Shown: positions 2,653 through 45,560 of the stretch, one piece after another
How the letters are laid out: each line of letters starts with the position of its first letter
Position numbering within the stretch: position 1 is the stretch's first letter
Origin: Dehalococcoidia bacterium
GTDB taxonomy: Bacteria > Chloroflexota > Dehalococcoidia > DSTF01 > JACRBR01
Reading direction: 5' to 3'
DNA length: 61,070 nt
Assembly (NCBI GenBank): GCA_040902535.1
Contig: JBBDXD010000015.1
Coordinates: forward strand, 1 to 61,070
The notes under the pieces: model-generated
The model's database searches: none
What the model was told of the DNA's origin: nothing
What the model saw: the letters and a program-made list of their open reading frames with translations, nothing else
Position numbers and translations under genes: made by a program

Positions 2653-2814
2653 CACCGCGGGTGACACGCCGGAAGACACGTGCCGGAAGATCATCGAAGG
2701 GCTCGCGTGACGATCTCCGGCCTCCGACGTCTGACTCCCGCGTCGTCCGCACTCGCCGCCGTCCTGTTGTTAGTTGCATGTCGGCTCGGGGCGGTCGGCT
2801 ACACTAACTTGCGG

Positions 2815-2858
2815 GGGCCCCTAGCTCAGTCTGGTAGAGCAGCGGACTTTTAATCCGT
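2815..2858 (+). pseudogene. Detached 5' half of tRNA-Lys(TTT) (left attachment junction)
   Basis: These 44 bases are identical to the first 44 bases of the complete tRNA-Lys at 6779: acceptor strand GGGCCCC, D arm and anticodon stem-loop up to CTTTTAATCCGT. After 2858 the sequence diverges and no T arm follows, so this copy cannot make a tRNA. A -10-like TACACT (2800-2805) sits just before it, so the original promoter is probably here. I read it as the chromosomal 5' half separated from its 3' half by insertion. Confidence 0.8.
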
Positions 2859-2872
2859 ACGACGAGAGGACA

Positions 2873-2894
2873 GCGGGGGCCGATAAGCCCCCGC
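2873..2894 (+). terminator. GC-rich hairpin just inside unit A
   Basis: An 8-bp perfect stem (GCGGGGGC / GCCCCCGC) with a six-base loop lies 14 bases after the broken tRNA half. There is no T run. It may stop transcription that enters from the still-present tRNA promoter. Confidence 0.4.
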
Positions 2895-2958
2895 CGAATC
2901 CACCATCAAGTGCTTAGTACGAAATCGGGTGACGGGGAGGGACACGAAAGCCCCTCAC

Positions 2959-2967
2959 GTTGCTGTC
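2959..2967 (+). other. Candidate recombinase arm-type site, left end of unit A
   Basis: GTTGCTGTC occurs here and again at 6651-6659 and 6714-6722, close to the other end of unit A. Such short repeats near both ends are the usual form of integrase arm-binding sites. No binding evidence exists beyond the repetition. Confidence 0.35.
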
Positions 2968-2978
2968 ACCTGTAGCTT

Positions 2979-4106
2979 TCAGCGGCCAGAAGCAAGCGCC
3001 GCGTCGAGTATTGCGACAGCCCCGCGCCCCTGCCCTTCGAGCGTGTGCCCGTAGACGTTCAACGTCAGCATCGGAGTCGAGTGTCCAACCAGCTCCGCGA
3101 CCACAGTAGGCGCGATCCCCTGCGCGAGCATGGCGCTGATCGCCGCGTGGCGAAGATCATGGAGCCGCAGACGGGGAAGCCCCGCCGACGACAGGATCGG
3201 CTCGAACACATGGCGCAGCGAGCGCCCGTCGATGTACGACCCGCCAGGCCCGACAAAGACGTGATCGGGACGCTGCCATGTACCGGGGAACGCGAGCCGT
3301 TCCTCGTTCTGCCGGACCTTGTGACGGCGCAACGCCTCGGCTGCGGTGGCCGTCAGCGGCACCGTGCGACGGCTGCGGTCGGTCTTGGGTTCGCAGATGG
3401 TCAGCCCGTCCGGTAGCGGCTGCAACGTGCCGACGATCTTCATGCTCGCGTTCTCGCCCAGGTCGATGTGCTTCCACGTCAGCGCCAGCGCCTCCCCGAG
3501 ACGGCATCCGCTGGTGATAAGCAGCGTCCAGAGGGCCGCGAGACGGTCTGCCTGTGCCACTTCGATGAAGCGCCCGATCTCCGGCATCGACAACACCGTG
3601 ATCTCTTTCCGCTCCACCTTCGGCGCGCTCACGCCTTCGAGGGGGTTACGGGCGAGCTGCCCCCACAACACACCCATCTTGAAACCGCGCTTCATCACCG
3701 CGCGCAGTTGCCGGATGCTGGCCGGTGCCGCCCCGGCGGCGAGCCGATCAGCGAACAATGCCTGAAACTTCGCAGGGGTGGCCTTCGACAGCGGCAACCC
3801 CCCGACGTGCGGGTAGCAGTGGACGCGCAGCAATTGCTCATACCGAACGGCGGTACGAGGACGCAGGCCCGCACGCGCGCCAGCATGCCATTCCTCAAGG
3901 AACTGCTGCACGGTGCGCCGGTCGCTCGTCAGCGGCAGTCCGTCGTCCTTCTTCTTGTTCGCCGCCGTCAGTAGCTTGCTCGCTTCGGCGCGCGTCGATG
4001 CATAGAACGTCTTGCGCCGGCCATCGTCCATGACCAACGCCGCCACCCACCGCTTATCCTTCTTGCGCTGGTAGACGGAACCCTCGCTATTCGCTCGCTT
4101 CGCCAT
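2979..4106 (-). CDS. Tyrosine recombinase (phage-type integrase)
   Basis: 375 residues from the ATG at 4106 (MAKRANSEGSVYQRK). The N-terminus has the basic AP2-like arm-binding region (KRWVAALVMDDGRRKTFYAS), followed by a SAM-like core-binding domain and a C-terminal catalytic domain. Catalytic residues are visible: Arg in SGCRLGEALAL, HDLRH, GHS and the nucleophile Tyr in LNVYGHTLEG. It lies at one end of the element pointing towards the att junction, the normal position for the integrase that mediates insertion. Its start overlaps the end of the upstream unknown gene by 20 bases, so the two are likely cotranscribed. Confidence 0.88.
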   Translation of the reverse strand: MAKRANSEGSVYQRKKDKRWVAALVMDDGRRKTFYASTRAEASKLLTAANKKKDDGLPLTSDRRTVQQFLEEWHAGARAGLRPRTAVRYEQLLRVHCYPHVGGLPLSKATPAKFQALFADRLAAGAAPASIRQLRAVMKRGFKMGVLWGQLARNPLEGVSAPKVERKEITVLSMPEIGRFIEVAQADRLAALWTLLITSGCRLGEALALTWKHIDLGENASMKIVGTLQPLPDGLTICEPKTDRSRRTVPLTATAAEALRRHKVRQNEERLAFPGTWQRPDHVFVGPGGSYIDGRSLRHVFEPILSSAGLPRLRLHDLRHAAISAMLAQGIAPTVVAELVGHSTPMLTLNVYGHTLEGQGRGAVAILDAALASGR

Positions 4107-4683
4107 CGCCAGCCTCCTTTCCGTCCAGCTTGCTCGCCTGCCGCAGCCGTTCATGCATGATCTCGCTCATCTTGTAGGGGAGCAGTGAGACGCCAAACAC
4201 CGCCTCGAACCGGTCGATGTTGTCGCCCATGGCTTCAAGCGCATCATCGAGTTCCGCATACAACTCGCTCAAATTGCCGTCCACGCCGAACCAAGGGGAC
4301 TTTGTCTTTGCGCGGAGGAAGTCAATCTCTGTGCGCGCATCATCCGCGGAGTCATCGCTCTCCGCTATAGAGCGAAGCGCAGCATCGAGCCGTTGCCCTT
4401 CATCTGCGCTCCACCACGAGGCCAACTGGAACTCGACCTGTCGCCGGAGACGCTGGCTTCCGGATCGCTCCGCGGTGTACAGCCACGCGGTTGCCCGCCA
4501 CCGTTGTTCAACCGGCAGCGTTGGCCGAGCCTGCGTCGTCCGCCAGAACCAGCGAGCCACCATGATTAGTGGCCTCTTGCCGCGCACCGACTCCCCTCCC
4601 GGTAGCTGCTGTGAGCCATTCAGATAGGTGAGCAATTCGAGGATCGCCTCGCTCGCCTCCCAGGGCAGGTCGCCGCGCTCCAT
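4087..4683 (-). CDS. Hypothetical protein cotranscribed with the integrase
   Basis: 198 residues, soluble, strongly charged, mainly helical by composition. I recognise no domain. An aromatic and basic segment (MVARWFWRTTQARP) and a long acidic helical part (SELYAELDDALEAMGDNIDR) stand out. The 3' end overlaps the integrase start by 20 bases. Just beyond its 5' end lies the broken-off 3' part of another recombinase gene on the opposite strand, so this two-gene block may itself have inserted into that gene. Confidence 0.6.
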   Translation of the reverse strand: MERGDLPWEASEAILELLTYLNGSQQLPGGESVRGKRPLIMVARWFWRTTQARPTLPVEQRWRATAWLYTAERSGSQRLRRQVEFQLASWWSADEGQRLDAALRSIAESDDSADDARTEIDFLRAKTKSPWFGVDGNLSELYAELDDALEAMGDNIDRFEAVFGVSLLPYKMSEIMHERLRQASKLDGKEAGDGEASE

Positions 4684-4691
4684 GGATTCGG

Positions 4692-4958
4692 GCCAGTGAC
4701 ACTCGCGCGTGTCAGAAGATCGTCGCCGGCGCGGACTCCGAAGACGTGCGCCACATCCTGGGGCACTCCACCCTCATGATGACCGCCCACTACACCGCAG
4801 CCGTGAGCGCCGATGCAGCCGTTGATCGGCTGCGTAACCTCAACAAGACCGTTCGGCCCATCGCATCCGACACCCGCAGCTTGATCCGCGCGTTGCTCGA
4901 CGACCCCGCCGCGCGCCTCGAACTGCTCACGACGCTACTGAAAGACGGTGGGGAATGA
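4692..4958 (+). pseudogene. C-terminal fragment of a tyrosine recombinase
   Basis: Only the last catalytic part remains: QKIVAGADSEDVRHILGHST carries the GH motif and the following segment (MMTAHYTAAVSAD) the Tyr nucleophile. The Arg and His-x-x-Arg motifs that should precede it are missing, and upstream sequence belongs to the opposite-strand unknown gene. The fragment resembles the C-terminus of the intact recombinase downstream (shared DxAVDRxRxL tail). It overlaps that gene by four bases (ATGA), as expected for tandem recombinase operons such as Tn554-like or RIT elements. Confidence 0.7.
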
Positions 4959-5902
4959 ACACCACCGACGCTATCAGCGCATTCTTGGAGCATTGCGTGT
5001 TACGGCGCTTGGCTCCGGGCACGATCCATAACTATCGGGCGAAACTCTCACGCTATCTCGCGCACCTTCCGACCACCGACGACTTCACCGAACCGGCGTT
5101 CGCGGACGTGATGCGGCGTTATATGGAGACACACGCCGCCGGCGGATCGCGGCACCTGTACGCGATCCTTCGCAGCTTCACAGGCTGGCTCTACGCGAAC
5201 AAGCTGGTCACGCACCGCATGGAGACGATCCCCAACCCGAAGAAGCATCTCAAGCCGCCGCGCTACCTCAACGATGAGGAAGTCGCGCTGCTGCTGGACG
5301 CGGCAGGGCGCAGCGTCAGCGGCCAGTCAGTCGTTGAGCGGGCCACGCTGCAATTGATCGTCCGGCTGCTGCTCACGACGGGCTTGCGCGCGGGCGAGCT
5401 ATGCGCGCTCGAATGGCGCGACATCGAGGGTGACGTGCTGCGGATCAGGCACGGCAAGGGAGACAAGGAGCGCGTCGTGCCGCTCGATCCCGCCGTCGCC
5501 GCGCTGCTCGACGCACGACCACGCGGGGGGGAGCGCATCTTCCCCTTCACCACGTCAGCGCTGCGGTCGAGAATCTACGCCCTCGGCAGACGCGCCAATC
5601 TTCGGCTATGGCCTCACTTGCTAAGGCATTCGTTCGCCTGTTCCGCCAGAAGGAGCGGAGCCGACACCGAAGATATCCGGCTTGTCCTGGGGCACACGAA
5701 CCTCCAGATGACGACGCTTTACATCGCCGCTGTGAACGCGGACGTAGCCGTTGACCGCATCCGGTCGCTGGCCCTATTCCCCGCCAACCCAACTATCGCC
5801 GGCGCGCAGGATGAGGACGCGCTGATCAAGGCGTTGCTCGCGAACCCGGCCACAAAGCGCCGCCTCATGGCCGCGCTCTTGAAGGAAATCACCGATGCCT
5901 AG
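4955..5902 (+). CDS. Tyrosine recombinase, XerC/D-like
   Basis: 315 residues. An N-terminal SAM-like domain (residues about 5-90) is followed by a complete catalytic domain: Arg in TGLRAGELCALEW, Lys in GKGDKERVVPL, His-Leu-Leu-Arg-His, GHTN and the Tyr in TTLYIAAV. It starts inside the stop of the truncated recombinase (ATGA) and its end overlaps the next small gene by eight bases, so three genes are translationally coupled. The arrangement recalls multi-recombinase elements where two or three recombinases act together. It may act on the unit itself or on a nested element. Confidence 0.85.
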   Translation: MNTTDAISAFLEHCVLRRLAPGTIHNYRAKLSRYLAHLPTTDDFTEPAFADVMRRYMETHAAGGSRHLYAILRSFTGWLYANKLVTHRMETIPNPKKHLKPPRYLNDEEVALLLDAAGRSVSGQSVVERATLQLIVRLLLTTGLRAGELCALEWRDIEGDVLRIRHGKGDKERVVPLDPAVAALLDARPRGGERIFPFTTSALRSRIYALGRRANLRLWPHLLRHSFACSARRSGADTEDIRLVLGHTNLQMTTLYIAAVNADVAVDRIRSLALFPANPTIAGAQDEDALIKALLANPATKRRLMAALLKEITDA

Positions 5903-6143
5903 CGACCTCGACAGCCCGACCTTCGACTATGCCCGTGCCTACCGCGACACCGGCTGCTCGCTCGCCCCGTCGTGCCTGTCCTGTCCCTTCACGCGCTGCC
6001 GCTACGAGGGCGGACGCCTTACCGACCGTGACAGCGAGATCACCAGGCTCCGCGCGCAGGGTGCCGCCACCACGGCGATCATGGAGCGGTTCGGACTCTC
6101 ACGCCGCAGCGTCTTCCGCGTGCTACAGGGGGAACGCCGATAA
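5895..6143 (+). CDS. Small Cys-rich helix-turn-helix protein
   Basis: 82 residues with two parts. The N-terminal half has four Cys in the pattern C-x5-C-x2-C-x4-C (residues about 21-35: CSLAPSCLSCPFTRC), suitable for a zinc or iron-sulfur site. The C-terminal half is a resolvase-like HTH (EITRLRAQGAATTAIMERFG and SRRSVFRVLQGERR). Start overlaps the recombinase stop, so expression is coupled. By position it could be a regulator of the recombinases or a directionality factor; neither role is shown. Confidence 0.65.
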   Translation: MPSDLDSPTFDYARAYRDTGCSLAPSCLSCPFTRCRYEGGRLTDRDSEITRLRAQGAATTAIMERFGLSRRSVFRVLQGERR

Positions 6144-6228
6144 GGGGACGTGCCTGTACGCCTCCATACTCCTACAATCACAGCCCCGCGAGGGGTCAAT
6201 CGCAACACTGAAACGAGGGGTGCCGGAC

Positions 6229-6639
6229 GTGATCGAAGCAATCGGCGTCATGTTGTTCGGGGCGGTCACATGGGGGGAGGGGTCTATCGTCTGCAAAGAC
6301 CCCGATATTTTTCTCGGCCTTGCTCGCGAACCGCGCACTGGCGCGGCAGTTCGCCTCACCCTCCCGCCGACGCGCTGTGTCTTGCTCTTGGTGGGTGGCG
6401 ACCCAGGCAGGCATGCCGTAGACATTCGCGTTTGTCTGCCCGATGGTCGCAAGCTAAAGGCTTCCGAGGGGGTAATCGACTGGCCCGCGGGCGCACCGTC
6501 TCCCATCTACACGCTTCACACGGAGCTGGTCTTTGACCCGATCGACATTCGAGAACCGGTCGGCGTCTATTGGCTGGAGTTCGATGTCGATGGCCGCACC
6601 GTGACGAGAGCGGGCATCCCCGTCGTTGGCCCGGAATAG
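6229..6639 (+). CDS. Hypothetical beta-rich protein (DUF6941-like)
   Basis: 136 residues from the GTG at 6229, preceded by a purine-rich CGAGGGG. The sequence alternates short strands (VRLTLPPTRCVLLLVGG, VDIRVCLPDGRKL, VYWLEFDVDGRTVTRAGIP) in a way that resembles the DUF6941 group of small phage or island proteins of unknown role. That resemblance is from memory and unverified. It is the last gene in unit A before the rebuilt tRNA. Confidence 0.5.
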   Translation: MIEAIGVMLFGAVTWGEGSIVCKDPDIFLGLAREPRTGAAVRLTLPPTRCVLLLVGGDPGRHAVDIRVCLPDGRKLKASEGVIDWPAGAPSPIYTLHTELVFDPIDIREPVGVYWLEFDVDGRTVTRAGIPVVGPE

Positions 6640-6650
6640 GGCAAGCCCTC

Positions 6651-6740
6651 GTTGCTGTCCGCTGCTGTCAGCGGCTACCGTGGCAGAAGCGAAACGCGCC
6701 TCTTTTGAAGCGGGTTGCTGTCACGGCTGCTGTCAACGGC
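6651..6740 (+). repeat. Repeated GTTGCTGTC / GCTGCTGTCA motifs at right end of unit A
   Basis: GTTGCTGTC at 6651 and 6714 and GCTGCTGTCA at 6661 and 6726 form a roughly 64-base direct duplication (each ends in a CGGCT[AT]CCG-like segment). Together with the copy at 2959 they are good candidates for recombinase arm sites. They lie 40-130 bases before the crossover core. Confidence 0.45.
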
Positions 6741-6778
6741 TTCCGTAACACCCGGAAACAGGCCCGTTTTGAATCTAG

Positions 6779-6855
6779 GGGCCCCTAGCTCAGTCTGGTA
6801 GAGCAGCGGACTTTTAATCCGTCGGTCCAGGGTTCGAATCCCTGGGGGCCCACCA
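6779..6855 (+). tRNA. tRNA-Lys(TTT), complete
   Basis: A 77-base gene with encoded CCA. Acceptor stem GGGCCCC / GGGGCCC, D arm, anticodon loop CTTTTAA (anticodon TTT), T arm CAGGG TTCGAAT CCCTG and discriminator A all fit the cloverleaf. The 5' part matches the detached half at 2815-2858 exactly, the 3' part matches 11732-11776. It sits at the junction of units A and B, so its two halves probably come from different units. It appears functional. Confidence 0.95.
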
Positions 6856-6955
6856 ACTTTGGATGCGCGGGATGTTGGAGGCGGGAAGCGGGACACGCTG
6901 ATCCGCCTCCGTTGGCTTCTGCCCGCGTTTTCAGTTCCAACCGCGTACGCCGCCT

Positions 6956-7351
6956 GTCTGGAACCGCACCCGGGCGGTCGATACTACAGGTACGACGACG
7001 TACACCTACGATGACCTGTATCGGCTGACCGACGTGACCTACCCGAACGCAGACGTGCAGACCTACGACTACGATCCGATGGGTAACCGCACCGAGAAGA
7101 CGCACAACAGCGTCCCGACCGCCTACGGCTATGACGATGCCGACCAGATGACGCTCGCTGGCGGCGTGGCGTACGACTACGACGACAACGGCAACCGGAT
7201 CGAGGCTGGCGCGGACACGTTCGAGTGCGACGCCGAGAACCGGCTCGTCGAGACGAACATCGCCTCGACGACGGGCAGGTACGACTACAACGGCGATGGA
7301 CTGCTCATCACGCGCATGATCGGCGCCGGTGCCGTCTCCTATGCCTGGTGA
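6956..7351 (+). pseudogene. Rhs/YD-repeat protein fragment
   Basis: The frame encodes consecutive YD repeats: YTYDDLYRLTDVTYPNADVQ, YDYDPMGNRTEK, YGYDDADQM, YDYDDNGNRIEAG and RYDYNGDGLL, then stops at 7351. There is no start codon or signal peptide; upstream is the att repeat. Full Rhs proteins have over a thousand residues and end in a core plus toxin domain, neither of which is present. It is therefore an internal fragment, probably left from an Rhs or wall-associated polymorphic-toxin gene truncated during rearrangement. Confidence 0.75.
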
Positions 7352-7393
7352 GCACGGCGAGCGAGCCGGACGGCCTAGCGTTCAGCGACTGGC

Positions 7394-7452
7394 ATCCGAT
7401 CGACGCAGAGAGACCTGCCACGTCTCTGCGTCGATCGGATCGTGGCAGGTCT
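7394..7452 (+). repeat. Interlocked inverted repeats (A-B-A'-B')
   Basis: Arm A (7394-7411) is perfectly complementary to A' (7423-7440), 18 bp. Arm B (7411-7422, AGACCTGCCACG) lies in the loop of A/A' and is perfectly complementary to B' (7441-7452). RNA from this site could form a long H-type pseudoknot; DNA could form either of two alternative cruciforms. No T run follows. The B motif recurs as TGACCTGCCACG at 8251-8262. Confidence 0.8.
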
Positions 7453-7812
7453 TGGAGCAAGTGAAGACGGGCCATCGAGCGGGGCACTAACGAGACCCCG
7501 GGGATCTCAACTCATTCCAATCGATGAGCCCCGAGCTCGGCAGCGCTTATGCTTGGCCCGAAATGAACCGACGTAAGAGTGTCGCAAACGACTTGACAAG
7601 CTCGGTTGGCAGGCGTATCGTCGGCGACGTCAACCGACGGGTCGGTATGCGCCCTATCGGAGTGCCGTGGCCGCGGGCGGCCGCGCCTGCATACCCGTTT
7701 CGCGCGGACATCGAGCGAGCGTAGACCTCAGGCCTCCCCTGCGAGGTTTCCGGGCAAGGAGGGCTACAGTGATCCTTTGTCGCGAACGCGCCAGGCAAAA
7801 GCCAGAACTCAA
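7453..7812. other. Intergenic region after the inverted repeat
   Basis: About 360 bases with no recognisable gene. Short open frames exist on both strands but show no domain or plausible ribosome binding site. Confidence 0.4.
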
Positions 7813-7992
7813 ATGACGACGCTCTCGCCGGCTCGGCTTCGATCCGTGATTGACGGACGCCATCTGCCCGGCCTAACTCGTCGCCAACTCCAAGTCTTGG
7901 CGGCATGTGAAATGGGCTACACCGACGCGCAGATCGCGTGCGGTATCGGTCGGAGTCCCGCGACAATCCGACGTCACCTAGCAGAGTTGTAA
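7813..7992 (+). CDS. Short LuxR-type HTH protein
   Basis: 59 residues from the ATG at 7813. The C-terminal 45 residues read as a GerE/LuxR DNA-binding domain: GLTRRQLQVLAACEMGYTDA followed by QIACGIGRSPATIRRHLAEL. The usual last helix is cut short, and there is no receiver or ligand domain, so this may be a remnant of a larger regulator or a free-standing mini-HTH. It precedes the secreted-protein operon of unit B and could regulate it. No clear Shine-Dalgarno sequence is visible. Confidence 0.5.
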   Translation: MTTLSPARLRSVIDGRHLPGLTRRQLQVLAACEMGYTDAQIACGIGRSPATIRRHLAEL

Positions 7993-8380
7993 CATCGGGT
8001 GTTCGCCCTAACTGGACTCGATCCGACACGTGCGCTTTTGGCGACCTGGACACGGGCGCATTTTCAATGTTGCACACGCCCCTGCCTGCAACTGTTCGCA
8101 GATGACCAAGTCTTTGATCAGAGCGATCAACGCGTTACATCCGGAGTATGAGAATCTAATCGTCGGCCTCGCGCCGGGCCTTGATGACGCTTAAGTATCA
8201 GGCTGGTGCCAGGTCGCAGACGTGGCGGCCTGAATCGAAAGGAGGACAAATGACCTGCCACGCTTGCACGCTCGAAGCATCGGATCCTTGACGTGGCACT
8301 TGCGTAAGCATAAACCCTTCGTCTGAACGATTGACGCTAGCGGCTCAGGAGACGGCCGTGGAATTCGCTCGGAGGTAGCA
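7993..8380 (+). promoter_or_regulatory. Leader region of the secreted-protein operon, with a possible 13-residue ORF
   Basis: 388 bases without a normal gene. A strong ribosome-binding sequence AAAGGAGGACAA precedes an ATG at 8250 that opens a 13-codon frame (MTCHACTLEASDP, stop 8289-8291). It could be a leader peptide. TGACCTGCCACG inside it repeats arm B of the upstream structure, and GACGTGGCAC follows at 8291. The function is speculative. Confidence 0.3.
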
Positions 8381-9247
8381 ATGAATCCATCTCGCTGGTT
8401 CCTGCTTCTACTCGCGCTTTCCTTTGCCTCGATCCCCGCCGTGGCTGGCGCGCAACCATCAGGTTCGGCGTTCGGCGGAACCGTTTGGGTGAATGCGGAG
8501 CCGGCGGATGGGGCAGTCGTCAGGGCGCTGATTGGTGGAGTCGAATGTGCAACGGCCACTGCGATAACACCGGCGGATGGAACTCCGACTTACTCACTGG
8601 TCGTGCCATCACAGCAGGAGAAGGCCGGCTGCGGAGTCGACGGAAGTGAGATCACCTTCGATGTGAACGGGATGGCCGCACATGAAACCGCAGTGTGGAG
8701 TGGTGCTGCGCCAGGCACGTTTCAACCACTTCAACTAACCGCCGGCGGGCGGTTTGCCGCTTACTCTGGAACGATTGTCGGTGCGCGCCGCGGCGACAAA
8801 CTGGAGGTAAGGACGCCAGCTGGCATAGTGTGCGGGTCAAGCGTCCTGCTAGATGTAGCCGGCGCCAACGCCCCGCAGCCATACTCGGTCGTTGTTAAGT
8901 CTGTGGATCTTGTCCCGGGGTGCCCCGACGATAATTCTCTGATTTCGTTTTGGTTGAACGGCTCGAGGATCGGGACAAATGTGAGTTGGCTGCTTGGATT
9001 CCACACGTTAGATTTCGTCGTCCCCGCCAGCGAACCAAGCACGTCTCTCCCCCCCACCGGAGCCGGACCCTCTGCAGAATCGAAGGTCCGCAGCTCCCGC
9101 ACGGTCGTTCTCATCTTCATTTTGTTTGTCACCGGCGTGGCAGTGATCAAGCACCGCAACGTGCCAACCGATCCGAGTAGCCCCGATTACGATTCGGCGA
9201 TCACGTCGATAGCCTTATCTCGTTCTTCCGGCGCGGAGTACGAGTAA
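8381..9247 (+). CDS. Secreted, probably surface-anchored protein with two repeat domains
   Basis: 288 residues. Signal peptide at residues 1-25 (FLLLLALSFASIPAVAGAQP). Two similar domains follow (about 28-120 and 122-212), each with a start like GGTVWVNAEPADGAVVRALI, a conserved Cys in the first third, a pGC motif and a strand of the form ISFWLNGSRIGT. A sortase-like motif LPPTG (about 225) precedes a hydrophobic helix (TVVLIFILFVTGVAVI), but a polar tail of about 30 residues follows the helix, which is unusual for LPXTG proteins. First gene of a three-gene secreted set; the start has GGAGG at suitable distance. Confidence 0.65.
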   Translation: MNPSRWFLLLLALSFASIPAVAGAQPSGSAFGGTVWVNAEPADGAVVRALIGGVECATATAITPADGTPTYSLVVPSQQEKAGCGVDGSEITFDVNGMAAHETAVWSGAAPGTFQPLQLTAGGRFAAYSGTIVGARRGDKLEVRTPAGIVCGSSVLLDVAGANAPQPYSVVVKSVDLVPGCPDDNSLISFWLNGSRIGTNVSWLLGFHTLDFVVPASEPSTSLPPTGAGPSAESKVRSSRTVVLIFILFVTGVAVIKHRNVPTDPSSPDYDSAITSIALSRSSGAEYE

Positions 9248-9260
9248 CAGGAGATTGTCC

Positions 9261-9680
9261 ATGAGACTTCGACTCCAGTATTCGATTGTCATCTTGGCGG
9301 CGAGCCTAGCCCTGAGTGCAGCACTCTTGGTCGCTCGCGCCTCAGAGGAACCCGCTCCGCTCAGCTCCGTCCGACCACAAATCTCGGTGGGGTGGTCGGA
9401 CCCTAACGACCCGCCTCCACCGATCGCTTCCGATCGCGAGCTTCGTGGAGGCTGCTTGGTCCCAAAGGACGCGGTTGAGGTTGTGAACGACACCGGGAAA
9501 CGCGCGGGTGGCCGCGTATTCGATGCTCGCGGTTATCGATTCTACAGTCTCGCAACTGGCAGATGCGTAAAGCTGGCTGGCGCCGAAACGCCACCAGACT
9601 GGGTCACATCCGAACTCGAGAACCTTGAAGTCCCCGTGACGGAATTGGCCCCTTCAGAAGAGGAGGCGGATGTACCATGA
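9261..9680 (+). CDS. Secreted or membrane-anchored protein of unknown function
   Basis: 139 residues from the ATG at 9261, with CAGGAGA upstream. The N-terminus has a hydrophobic segment (YSIVILAASLALSAALLVA) that acts as a signal peptide or anchor. The rest is polar, with two Cys and an acidic C-terminus (ELAPSEEEADVP). I recognise no domain. Its stop overlaps the next start by four bases (ATGA), so translation is coupled to the protease-like protein; it may be a partner, inhibitor or chaperone of that protein. Confidence 0.6.
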   Translation: MRLRLQYSIVILAASLALSAALLVARASEEPAPLSSVRPQISVGWSDPNDPPPPIASDRELRGGCLVPKDAVEVVNDTGKRAGGRVFDARGYRFYSLATGRCVKLAGAETPPDWVTSELENLEVPVTELAPSEEEADVP

Positions 9681-11290
9681 GTCACTTTAGGGTGGTTGCC
9701 AACTCCGCCATTCTGGCCGTAGCTCTGGTTCTGCCGCTCCTAGCAGTCACAGGCAAGGTCACGCTAGGAAGCCACGCGTACGGGCCCGATCACCCGCGCC
9801 CCGTTCGGGCGTCGGGAAACACGGCATACTTTGGTGACGTGACCACTTCAATGCGCACGCACCAGCAGAATGGCATCAACTACTGGAACGCTGTTCCGGA
9901 TAACATCCATCGGTATAACGCCACACAGGTCAGTTACGTCAATGGCGTCCAATACGATCTTCTCTTTGACGCCACAACCGAGGGCGGGACGGATTGCTGG
10001 ATTGACTTGACGCATTGTCTAACGATACCTGTGCAGAACCCTCAAGGGTTCTTCACTCTAGCCCAGCAGTGGCGATTCAAGGACCTCAACGTTGCTGTCG
10101 TGCAGTGGAACACGACACGCTTCGATGATACGAGGCCGGCCATCGGGGGCATTGCATTCAACTCGGTCCTGATGCGACACGAACTCGGGCACGATCAGCT
10201 TCTCGGAGATCATCCGTACACCGAGACAACGTACACTGGACTGATGTGTGGCGTAATTGGTGGCATCAACGGTGGGCAATCACCGACGTGCACCAGCCAA
10301 GCCACCGCGACGTCGTCTGAGCTCGCCACAGCATCGGCCCAGTACATTGCACGCCCGCAGGCACCTACATTGATCAGTGTTGGACCGCGAACTGCGACAA
10401 CAGTCCAGATCAACTTCTCCGGTGCGTCGAACCATGACGGATTCATGCCGTATCGGTCGACCAGCTTGGCCGAGGCGTCTTGGGTTGCACAGACCGTTCA
10501 AAGTGCAGCCTCGACGAGTTACACCTTCACCGGCCTCTCACCGAACACCACGTACAACTTTCGCATTGCAGCAAGGAAAGCCGGGCAAGCGGAGAGTACG
10601 TCCTTCTGGATAGGCGCTTCGACGCTTTCGGCGATCGATTTGGAGGCGACCAACTACTCTCCGCATAAGCCGGCATCATCGAGCGGCACGACAGCGATCA
10701 ACGAAGGCGCCTCATCGACCCAGTTCACGCTTTCCGTAAGGAACAACGGTACTCAGGCGGCGCCGTCGTCCTGGGTCAAGATCCGCTTCGGAGGAAACGA
10801 CCCACCGAGTGGCGGGATCTGTAACATTCCATCGATAGGCCCGGGTGCCACAGTATCGTGTCTAACCGGAGCCGTCCCTTGGACCACTTTGTTTGGTGGT
10901 CCCGTCACCGTCGTCGCCGATTACAACGGGCTTGTCACCGAGTCAAATGAGGGCAACAACACGTACTCGTGGGGCACGATCGCCGTGAAACCAACGGCGC
11001 CCGACAACGCTCGGATATGCACTCCCGCGTGCGATCTCTTCGGTTATGACGATGATTCGAGCATCGAAACTGGGTTCGGGATCATCATCCAGAAGAGATC
11101 GACAAGTTGCAGCAGCGGCACCTGGAGCAGCTACGCCCAGTTCTTGCATCCACCAAAGGGCGGAACCGACGATGTGTACTTCTACAACTTCCCCGCTGGC
11201 GCGTTCCGCATAAAAGTGCAGGCGCTGGGACTCCCTGCGGGCCCGCACTCATCAACCGACACGAGCGCCTGCGTGTTTTTCTCCTCGTAG
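9677..11290 (+). CDS. Secreted zincin-like metallopeptidase with Fn3 and CARDB-like domains
   Basis: 537 residues. Signal peptide (residues 1-34, ILAVALVLPLLAVTG). The N-terminal domain has the zincin motif HELGH followed by DQLLGDH, giving a possible third His ligand, and a later TGLMCG that could be a Met-turn; spacing differs by one from the classical HExxHxxGxxH. Residues about 230-315 form a fibronectin type III domain (YTFTGLSPNTTYNFRIAARK), about 320-435 a CARDB-like domain (TLSVRNNGTQAA, ESNEGNNTY), then a Cys-containing C-terminal domain. No membrane anchor. It probably acts outside the cell on proteins; substrate unknown. Confidence 0.7.
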   Translation: MSHFRVVANSAILAVALVLPLLAVTGKVTLGSHAYGPDHPRPVRASGNTAYFGDVTTSMRTHQQNGINYWNAVPDNIHRYNATQVSYVNGVQYDLLFDATTEGGTDCWIDLTHCLTIPVQNPQGFFTLAQQWRFKDLNVAVVQWNTTRFDDTRPAIGGIAFNSVLMRHELGHDQLLGDHPYTETTYTGLMCGVIGGINGGQSPTCTSQATATSSELATASAQYIARPQAPTLISVGPRTATTVQINFSGASNHDGFMPYRSTSLAEASWVAQTVQSAASTSYTFTGLSPNTTYNFRIAARKAGQAESTSFWIGASTLSAIDLEATNYSPHKPASSSGTTAINEGASSTQFTLSVRNNGTQAAPSSWVKIRFGGNDPPSGGICNIPSIGPGATVSCLTGAVPWTTLFGGPVTVVADYNGLVTESNEGNNTYSWGTIAVKPTAPDNARICTPACDLFGYDDDSSIETGFGIIIQKRSTSCSSGTWSSYAQFLHPPKGGTDDVYFYNFPAGAFRIKVQALGLPAGPHSSTDTSACVFFSS

Positions 11291-11296
11291 CGCATG

Positions 11297-11325
11297 GTAC
11301 GGGGCTGCCGATGGCAGCCCCGTAC
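11297..11325 (+). terminator. Terminator of the secreted-protein operon
   Basis: A perfect 13-bp stem (GTACGGGGCTGCC / GGCAGCCCCGTAC) with a three-base loop, followed by TCTTTCCC, seven bases after the stop codon. Confidence 0.8.
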
Positions 11326-11731
11326 TCTTTCCCTCTCGACCAGTCATCTTCTCCGTTATTCGTTGGCGATCGACGACGTCAATTGGACAACCCCTGCGCG
11401 CTGTGCGTGCAACCTGATGGACAGATGCCGTGCGGGAATGGTTACGAGAACCGTTCCGATGCCTTGCGGGCATCCCCGCTCAAAGATTCAGTTCTGACCA
11501 TCGGTTTCAGCTCCAAGCTTCCAATCCCATGATCGCCCGCGCGCGTCCCGCGTCGATTACGGGTACCTCGCTGATCGATAGGTTCAATTGGACGCTCTCG
11601 CGCGGCCGTCATACAATCCAACGGTCAAATGCCGGCGGGGCAAGACCGCTGGATTCGTCACGGACGCGTACGTCTTCTGTGCTTGACCAGATTCGCGGTT
11701 GACTGACGGACAGACGGAACGGGCTGTGAGC
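11326..11731. other. Right arm of unit B, no gene
   Basis: About 400 bases without a recognisable gene. The last 61 bases (11671-11731) align without gaps to 45361-45420, next to the tRNA-Arg remnant. They are therefore likely a recombination arm. Confidence 0.5.
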
Positions 11732-11776
11732 CTTTTAATCCGTCGGTCCAGGGTTCGAATCCCTGGGGGCCCACCA
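11732..11776 (+). pseudogene. 3' half of tRNA-Lys(TTT) (right attachment junction)
   Basis: From CTTTTAATCCGT to CCA this equals the 3' part of the tRNA-Lys at 6811-6855. The preceding bases (GGGCTGTGAGC) do not form the 5' anticodon stem, D arm or acceptor strand, so no tRNA can be made here. It is probably the original chromosomal 3' half. The match to unit B's left end continues to 11812. Confidence 0.85.
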
Positions 11777-11839
11777 ACTTTGGATGCGGGATGTTGGAGG
11801 CGGGAAGCGGGATGTCCGCGACGGCTCCCGGTGCCCGCC

Positions 11840-36211: not shown

Positions 36212-36836
36212 GCGCAGCAGCACCACCATCGCGCCCTCGACGACGCCGGTTAGCCACTCGTCATCAGCAACTGTCATTCAGAGCGAAGCTAACTGTCATT
36301 CAGAGCCAAGCTAACTGTCATTCAGAGCGAAGCGAAGAATCTCCCACCGCGCCAATCAACTGCGGAGAAGGACGCGGAATAACGTCATCCTGAGCGCACG
36401 CGAAGGATCCCGTCACGACCACCACCGTCGCACCGCACACCAACGCCCCGCATACCGTCATTCAGAGCGCAGCGAAGAATCTCCCACACAGCGCCAATCA
36501 GATGCACACAGACCGGCGGACACCCTGCAATCACCCGAACCCACCACCACATCCAACATTTGCGCCCATCTGTGTCCATCTGTGGATACCCCCCCAAACG
36601 CCGCACGCGCGACCTCTCCAGACATCCAACATCTGTGCCATCTGCGTCCATCTGCGGATAACCCCCAACGACACTCTCCGCGCGCGCGACCTCCCGCTTC
36701 CCGCTTCCCGCCTCCCGCATCCATCTCACGCGCCTTGCTTGTCAACCACCCCCATCGCTAAGATGCTGGTGGGCGGCATTCCCCGAGAAGATGCCGCTTT
36801 TGTATTGGTGGCGTTCCCCCAGCCCCGCGGGAGACT
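36212..36836. repeat. Intergenic repeat cluster 2
   Basis: About 625 bases without a gene. GTCATTCAGAGC-type repeats start at 36273, 36294 and 36317 (two truncated, one full), a GTCATCCTGAGC-type at 36384 and another full copy at 36457. Then two rounds of CATCTGTGTCCATCTGTGGATA-like text (36560-36665), a CCCGCTTCCCGCTTCCCGCC run (36697-36719) and the pyrG leader. Confidence 0.8.
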
Positions 36837-45163: not shown

Positions 45164-45420
45164 CGCTCCGTTCCTGACGGGCCCCGACCGGACACTGAGT
45201 ACGCGATGCGTACGCCGACGCAGGTGGTGCAGTAGCGAACTTCCGGATCCATGCGAAGATTGTAGCCACGCGGGTCTTTCACGTGACTTCTGAGCATTGA
45301 TCTAATCCTATGGTCTCGCCTGCTAGGCATCGAGACCACAGGACTCGTTTGAGTCCGACACGCTCTCGGTCTTCATGCAGATTCACGGTTGCCCGCCGGG
45401 CATGAAGATTCGGTAGCGAG
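45164..45420. other. Recombination-arm-like region upstream of the tRNA-Arg remnant
   Basis: No gene. Contains the inverted repeats GGTCTCG...CGAGACC (45312-45336) and CTTCATGC...GCATGAAG (45371-45407). Bases 45361-45420 align without gaps to 11671-11730, the arm at the right end of unit B (about 44 of 70 identical when the core is included, hand count). Confidence 0.5.
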
Positions 45421-45466
45421 CCTTCTAATCCGATGGTCGCCGGTTCGACCCCTGCCCAGAAACCAA
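45421..45466 (+). pseudogene. 3' part of a tRNA-Arg(TCT)-like gene (attachment-type junction)
   Basis: CCTTCTAATCCGATGG is the anticodon loop (TCT) and 3' stem, GGTTCGACC the T loop region and CCCAGAAACCA an acceptor end with CCA. The 5' anticodon stem, D arm and acceptor 5' strand are missing; the preceding bases (GGTAGCGAG) do not pair. The T stem has a mismatch. It is a remnant, cut at the same place as the tRNA-Lys half at 11732. Confidence 0.65.
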
Positions 45467-45560
45467 ACACAAATCGGCAAGACAACAAGCGAGGCCCCCA
45501 AACGGAGGCCCCACTTAAAACTTACAACTGAAAACTGACAACCGGCGCGCTACGCGCGCC

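Follow-up and report, generated by a model that had tools for sequence, protein, structure and literature searches.

Almost all islands residing in tRNA genes rebuild the 3' half of their target, so that the host promoter is kept. In the Islander catalogue, 159 of 3919 islands carry a 5' fragment (~4%) and 125 tandems are counted (PMC4383910). According to a review of archaeal recombinases, a rebuilt bacterial tRNA keeps its original promoter with very few exceptions; the archaeal pTN3 group uses the 5' half, the rebuilt tRNA being reported as expressed from the integrase promoter, and this arrangement is seldom seen in bacteria (PMC8371274). Here, we analyze a tRNA-Lys(TTT) locus of a Dehalococcoidia bacterium, located in a window of 61,070 nucleotides (the whole stretch of DNA analyzed, C15:1-61070) from a draft assembly of 3.18 Mb in 28 contigs, 96% complete and hereafter called G000. 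With a probability of roughly 0.83, two unrelated tyrosine-integrase elements occupy the anticodon loop of this gene, unit A restoring its 5' half and unit B its 3' half.

In the mechanism that we propose, the attachment site (attP) of unit A would carry nucleotides 1-44 of the tRNA. Its integration would have left the native promoter in front of a 5' half no longer in use (2814-2858) and created a working gene composed of the 5' half of A and the 3' half of the host. Unit B would have supplied the 3' half now in use, the native one being pushed to 11732. Unit A would be a variant with 5' polarity in an integrase family which usually restores 3' ends, and unit B an integrase-less member of a family usually found at tRNA-Arg(TCT). 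We infer this order of the two insertion events, the insertion of A by its own integrase, and, for B, either integration by an integrase acting in trans or loss of its own.

The tRNA-Lys(TTT) gene and its displaced halves

The original prediction placed a 5' half on the left, a full gene in the middle and a 3' half on the right, sharing one core, and both ARAGORN and exact repeat searches bear this out. ARAGORN recognized a single full tRNA-Lys(TTT) in the window (6779-6855, + strand), which scores 72.6 bits against RF00005. An exact 45-nucleotide repeat (2814-2858 and 6778-6822) corresponds to the 5' half of this gene, while an exact 57-nucleotide repeat (6811-6867 and 11732-11788) and an exact 27-nucleotide repeat (6867-6893 and 11786-11812) are blocks of one 81/83-nucleotide repeat with a 2-nucleotide indel (6811-6893 and 11732-11812). 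The latter contains the 3' half together with 38 bp of flanking DNA, as had been anticipated for unit B, and its overlap with the 5' repeat defines the 12 bases common to all three copies, CTTTTAATCCGT. Repeats of this length, ending at tRNA half boundaries, are not due to chance. Across the whole assembly, a pattern combining the TTT anticodon loop and the T arm was found at 6812, at 11733 and in one unrelated-looking match only, and AGCGGACTTTTAATCCGT at 2841 and 6805 only. A Lys(CTT) tRNA gene is located on C9, and no second recognizable tRNA-Lys TTT gene was found in this 3.18-Mb, 96%-complete assembly, the tRNA-Lys(UUU/TTT) gene being apparently single-copy in this genome. The locus is organized as follows:

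2735..2814, + strand: native upstream region of tRNA-Lys(TTT), with a -10-like TACACT; the same motif precedes intact tRNA-Lys in relatives
2814..2858, + strand: 5' half of tRNA-Lys(TTT) no longer in use, with the core (attL of unit A); exact 45-nucleotide repeat with 6778-6822
6779..6855, + strand: functional tRNA-Lys(TTT), 5' half from A and 3' half from B; attR of A overlaps attL of B
6811..6893, + strand: B-borne 3' half and 38-bp flank; repeat with 11732-11812
11732..11812, + strand: displaced native 3' half and native flank, attR of unit B; repeat, with a border as in other right ends of the family

A -10-like TACACT lies 8-15 nucleotides upstream of intact tRNA-Lys in five genomes of the same family (G001, G003, G004, G006, G007). 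In the window it precedes the left half only and is missing before the middle gene, which supports the claim that the original promoter sits at the dead left half. This half is not bare, since GGGGGCC in unit A can pair with the acceptor strand: positions 2815-2882, that is the 5' half and the first 24 bases of A, reach a tRNA score of 35 bits, above the gathering cut-off of 29. Judging from this fold, 2815-2882 may possibly yield a tRNA-like transcript from the native promoter. A D-armless tRNA-like RNA was also considered at displaced 3' halves and rejected for the window, as the anticodon stem is unpaired at 11732. Part of the 38-bp flank in the B repeat belongs to an intergenic repeat dispersed over the genome, with 26 copies at up to 3 mismatches. 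This repeat, GGATGCGGGAGGCGGGAAGCGGGA, is heptad-like and lies in the window at 6863-6893, 11782-11823 and 36699-36722; the reversed control had no copies.

Unit A and an integrase family of both polarities

Unit A (2859-6822) is bounded by a same-orientation tRNA fragment repeat at both ends, contains a tyrosine integrase and places the working tRNA downstream of a 5' fragment, which is the geometry of 5' restoration. By inspection, the R, HxxR and Y residues of the integrase are present; a scan of the genome contigs with this protein gave a single distant match. The features of unit A are:

2859..2978, + strand: left (distal) end of A, with one arm-like site GTTGCTGTCA at 2959; together with the 5' half it scores as a tRNA
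2979..4154, - strand: tyrosine integrase, Phage_integrase and SAM-like N-terminal domain (Pfam 1.1e-17; PHROG integrase 4.4e-68)
4087..4683, - strand: open reading frame (ORF), 198 aa, no family match in Pfam and PHROG scans
4746..4958, + strand: ORF, truncated remnant of a recombinase C-terminus (73% DNA identity between 4727-4828 and 5656-5757)
4955..5902, + strand: second tyrosine recombinase, XerA/XerC-like (Pfam and PHROG scans)
5895..6143, + strand: small helix-turn-helix protein (HTH_7 4.8e-5)
6229..6639, + strand: ORF weakly DUF6941-like (family scan), its stop adjoining the right arm sites
6640..6777, + strand: right (tRNA-proximal) end of A, with four arm-like sites and the core-adjacent motif TTTTGAATCT

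The truncated copy of a recombinase C-terminus (4727-4958) adjoins the intact Xer-like recombinase (5656-5902), with 73% DNA identity over 102 bp.

The integrase family was searched in a class-wide sample of 294 genomes, the same sample serving for the right ends of B, which were sought with a covariance model. At E<=1e-30, 104 of these genomes contain the family. Of thirty loci fetched, 15 show an intact tRNA no more than ~250 bp from the stop of the integrase gene. The tRNA points toward the integrase, as in 3' restoration, in 12 of the 15, and away from it, as in 5' restoration, in the other three (tRNA-Lys at L139, tRNA-Arg at L151 and tRNA-Ser at L157). The integrase-proximal end follows a stereotyped order, namely the tRNA, a TTTCGTATCTAA-like motif, often a hairpin, paired TTGACAGCAA/TGACAGCAAC repeats and the integrase stop; repeats of the GTTGCTGTCA type are found at the ends of elements of this family. 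The right end of A has this order too, reading outward from the 5' end of the tRNA, with arm-like sites GTTGCTGTC/GCTGCTGTCA at 6651, 6661, 6714 and 6726. These sites and the left one at 2959 share a single orientation, as do those at both ends of the element in G017, so that both ends of A are predicted to carry the arm-type sites typical of the family.

Two of the relatives carry, across the element from the intact gene, an exact solitary 5' half covering nucleotides 1-39: tRNA-Ser(TGA) in G210, 48.2 kb away, and tRNA-Arg(CCT) in G017, 12.1 kb away. At the level of sequence, this proves 5' restoration by the family at these two loci. The third case, G259, combines a tRNA-Lys(TTT) with a 3' half that lies displaced 1.7 kb downstream and is degenerate, its contig stopping before the region where a dead 5' half would lie, and is a related two-sided stack like that of the window. 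The leaders of G012 and G017 look similar to the structured right end of B described below and had been considered as an RNA; arm-like repeats at the two ends account for them better.

The genes of A adjoining the middle tRNA (Xer-like recombinase, small helix-turn-helix protein, DUF6941-like ORF) are all directed at it. By inspection, the three loci with a tRNA pointing away from the integrase have no strong hairpin between the two genes, which are co-directional, so that read-through is possible there. As a sigma-70 promoter scan upstream of 6779 gave no match, we infer that the middle tRNA is transcribed either by read-through from A or from an unrecognized promoter. G012 differs: there, a diverged copy of ~125 bp from the region upstream of the solitary half accompanies the working gene, and the element seems to have brought a promoter copy, unlike unit A. 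The dependence of the active tRNA on sequence carried by an element, suggested earlier, is shown for its 5' half and upstream DNA.

Unit B and related right ends

Unit B (6823-11743) has att-like ends and, according to Pfam and PHROG scans of its proteins, no integrase. No conjugation genes were found among the scanned proteins of A and B, and neither is thus classed as an integrative and conjugative element (ICE). The GC content of unit B (59.6%) is lower than that of unit A (64.5%) and of the flanks (65-67%), which counts in favor of two separate elements. Its other features are:

7034..7351, + strand: truncated RHS/YD-repeat fragment (family scans)
8381..9247, + strand: cargo ORF, 288 aa, no family match (family scans)
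9255..9680, + strand: cargo ORF, 141 aa, no family match (family scans)
9677..11290, + strand: cargo ORF, secreted-looking, fn3 and CARDB domains (Pfam scan)
11580..11731, + strand: right end of B, with an outward promoter-like TTGGAC-TACAAT, a hairpin at 11615-11658 and an AGATTC motif (16 right ends)

The assignment of B to a family relies on its right end. Positions 11612-11738 are homologous to right ends in G001 and G010, and the covariance model recovered 16 such ends in 7 of the 294 genomes, most of them directly preceding a displaced tRNA 3' half, either Lys(TTT) or, oftener, Arg(TCT), whose loop cores differ by one base. Matching right ends before displaced Lys or Arg 3' halves occur in G001, G007, G010, G002, G003 and elsewhere in this genome, and the 11731/11732 border coincides with the element border in other genomes. 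The right ends share a TTGNNN-17/18-TNNAAT motif and a hairpin; an earlier fold of four sequences had shown almost no covariation. Over 16 sequences, 82.9% of cells are paired, compared to 21-50% when the pairing is slid, with double changes at 5 pairs. The predicted hairpin is thus supported, though a DNA dyad would look alike; Rfam returned only tRNA-derived or chance matches for this end.

An integrase-bearing member resides in this very genome (G000:C10), where a tRNA-Arg(TCT) is followed by a co-directional integrase, a right end 5.5 kb on and a displaced 3' half. The integrase lies directly downstream of the tRNA in this member as well as in G001:C35 and G001:C38 and is absent from B which, lacking a cognate integrase, can only be a non-autonomous derivative. 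In a circular form, the promoter-like sequence of the right end would be directed toward the 3' half of the tRNA and the integrase. Collectively, the arm-like repeats at both ends of A, the proven 5'-restoring relatives and the homology of the right end of B support the opposite restoration proposed in the original prediction, and evidence from relatives likewise favors tandem insertion at the anticodon loop.

Similar orders recur at tRNA-Lys in other genomes. An intact tRNA-Lys is followed by two displaced 3' halves each in G010, G012 and G017, and by a displaced 3' half in G016. In the first three genomes, the units measure 1.2-5.4 kb and no integrase was found in them. A 5' half stands alone twice in G011 and also in G012. 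G012 is probably also two-sided at tRNA-Lys(TTT), with a dead 5' half and displaced 3' halves on separate contigs.

Several further observations were made on these loci. Within B, a perfect 18-bp inverted repeat (7394-7411 and 7423-7440) follows the RHS/YD-repeat fragment, and G001:C62 also has RHS-like sequence (L046:102-1022) beside a B-type right end. A second right end of the B family lies in the window at 45301-45475, followed by a displaced tRNA-Arg(TCT) 3' half, CCTTCTAATCCGATGGTCGCCGGTTCGACCCCTGCCCAGAAACCA; it is an orphan element end, as ARAGORN found no full tRNA-Arg in the window. In L044 (G010:C251), tRNA-Lys is followed by a cassette-like stack of two units, 1.2 and 2.3 kb long, each without an integrase and with one gene for a secreted-looking protein. 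In G011, a tRNA-Lys-like gene 92% identical to Lys(TTT) and with a damaged anticodon loop (L042:4774-4844) sits 5.2 kb upstream of the intact gene. In L054 (G017:C76), a reverse-strand tRNA-Gly(CCC)-like 3' half, recognized by eye at ~6880-7000, lies just upstream of the right-end promoter of a tRNA-Lys element, as if two attachment remnants abut.

Alternative readings and comparison with known systems

Several observations weigh against two elements of opposite polarity. In contrast to its position in the proven 5'-restoring relatives, the integrase of A lies far from the functional tRNA, at the opposite end of the unit, and A also contains another recombinase and part of a third; the distal position of the integrase means that A may be rearranged or composite. 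For B, no arm-like repeat common to both ends was found, and the identity of the 38-bp flank at its left end is unusual. Among the relatives compared, none of the same genus, the empty site (2858 joined to 11744) was not found, nor are the genes flanking the locus syntenic. In a 28-contig draft with repeats shorter than a read pair, a mis-join may also have occurred.

The position of the integrase also fits an explanation, in our view unlikely, in which A consists of two decayed elements, the left one with the integrase and the right one with the Xer-like recombinase, bracketed by chance by 5' halves. Its content of two intact recombinases and a truncated third agrees with this, as do arm sites of the integrase-proximal type at 6640-6777 without an integrase stop. 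However, one type of arm-like repeat in one orientation occurs at both ends, as in the intact G017 element, and the repeat search found no internal core copy between 2859 and 6777. Similarly improbable is the entry of B as a circle that recombined homologously through the shared 81-bp segment, for which B would need no integrase of its own; the repeat runs 38 bp past the tRNA, a length unneeded for site-specific restoration, but the right border falls exactly at the loop core, as in the integrase-bearing relatives. A middle tRNA of ancestral origin, flanked by halves from unrelated duplications, would fit the missing empty site but is very hard to reconcile with half boundaries that coincide exactly with the ends of the tRNA and with the anticodon-loop core, with a native -10 only at the left half, with a right border shared with elements of other genomes and with the same geometry proven elsewhere in the A-integrase family. 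An assembly chimera at the repeated tRNA, which the 45- and 81-nucleotide repeats of a fragmented draft could favor, is just as improbable, since each junction has element-specific features (arm sites, conserved right end) and similar arrangements exist in independently assembled genomes.

A presumably essential, apparently single-copy tRNA gene here seems to rely on element DNA both for its 5' half and for the region upstream; were the promoter also element-borne, this would be a direct case of an essential gene handed to a mobile element. Tentatively, and with the odds rather against it, tRNA-Lys(UUU) might be a two-sided docking site in this lineage, with 5'-type elements stacking upstream and 3'-type elements downstream; the apparently only copy would be transcribed from mobile-element DNA, any imprecise loss of A would be lethal and A would thereby be protected from deletion. 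Besides, an integrase family restoring either side makes the polarity switch testable.

In a small search of the open-access literature, no account was found of one tRNA shared by a 5'-restoring and a 3'-restoring element. As in Islander islands, a regenerated tRNA and a displaced fragment mark the ends, and the anticodon-loop site is among the usual ones (PMC4383910). In contrast to B, which has no integrase, each tandem member must have one under the rules stated in the sections of that work considered here, in which 5' and 3' fragments sharing one tRNA are not discussed (PMC4383910). Compared to the pTN3-like integrases, the present family is bacterial and mostly 3'-restoring, and the integrase of A faces away from the tRNA. 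The ssrA islands of Dehalococcoides, an example of accretion and of cis-mobilizable elements, are likewise tandem islands at one RNA gene, some of them without an integration module, but all their repeats lie downstream of ssrA, whereas here elements occupy both sides of the tRNA (PMC3146451). ICEclc and ICEKp1 use an outward promoter for their excised state, and by analogy the far-end promoter of the B family would face the integrase gene in the circle (PMC2704930, PMC13023037). The integrase-bearing relatives of B share with them an integrase gene directly downstream of the tRNA; unlike in these ICEs, the arrangement is known here from sequence alone, and B lacks an integrase gene. Each half of the locus is thus a known kind of event, that at the front half being the rare one. 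The combination of these known processes in a two-sided stack is unusual, and its most useful new piece is an integrase family with both polarities.

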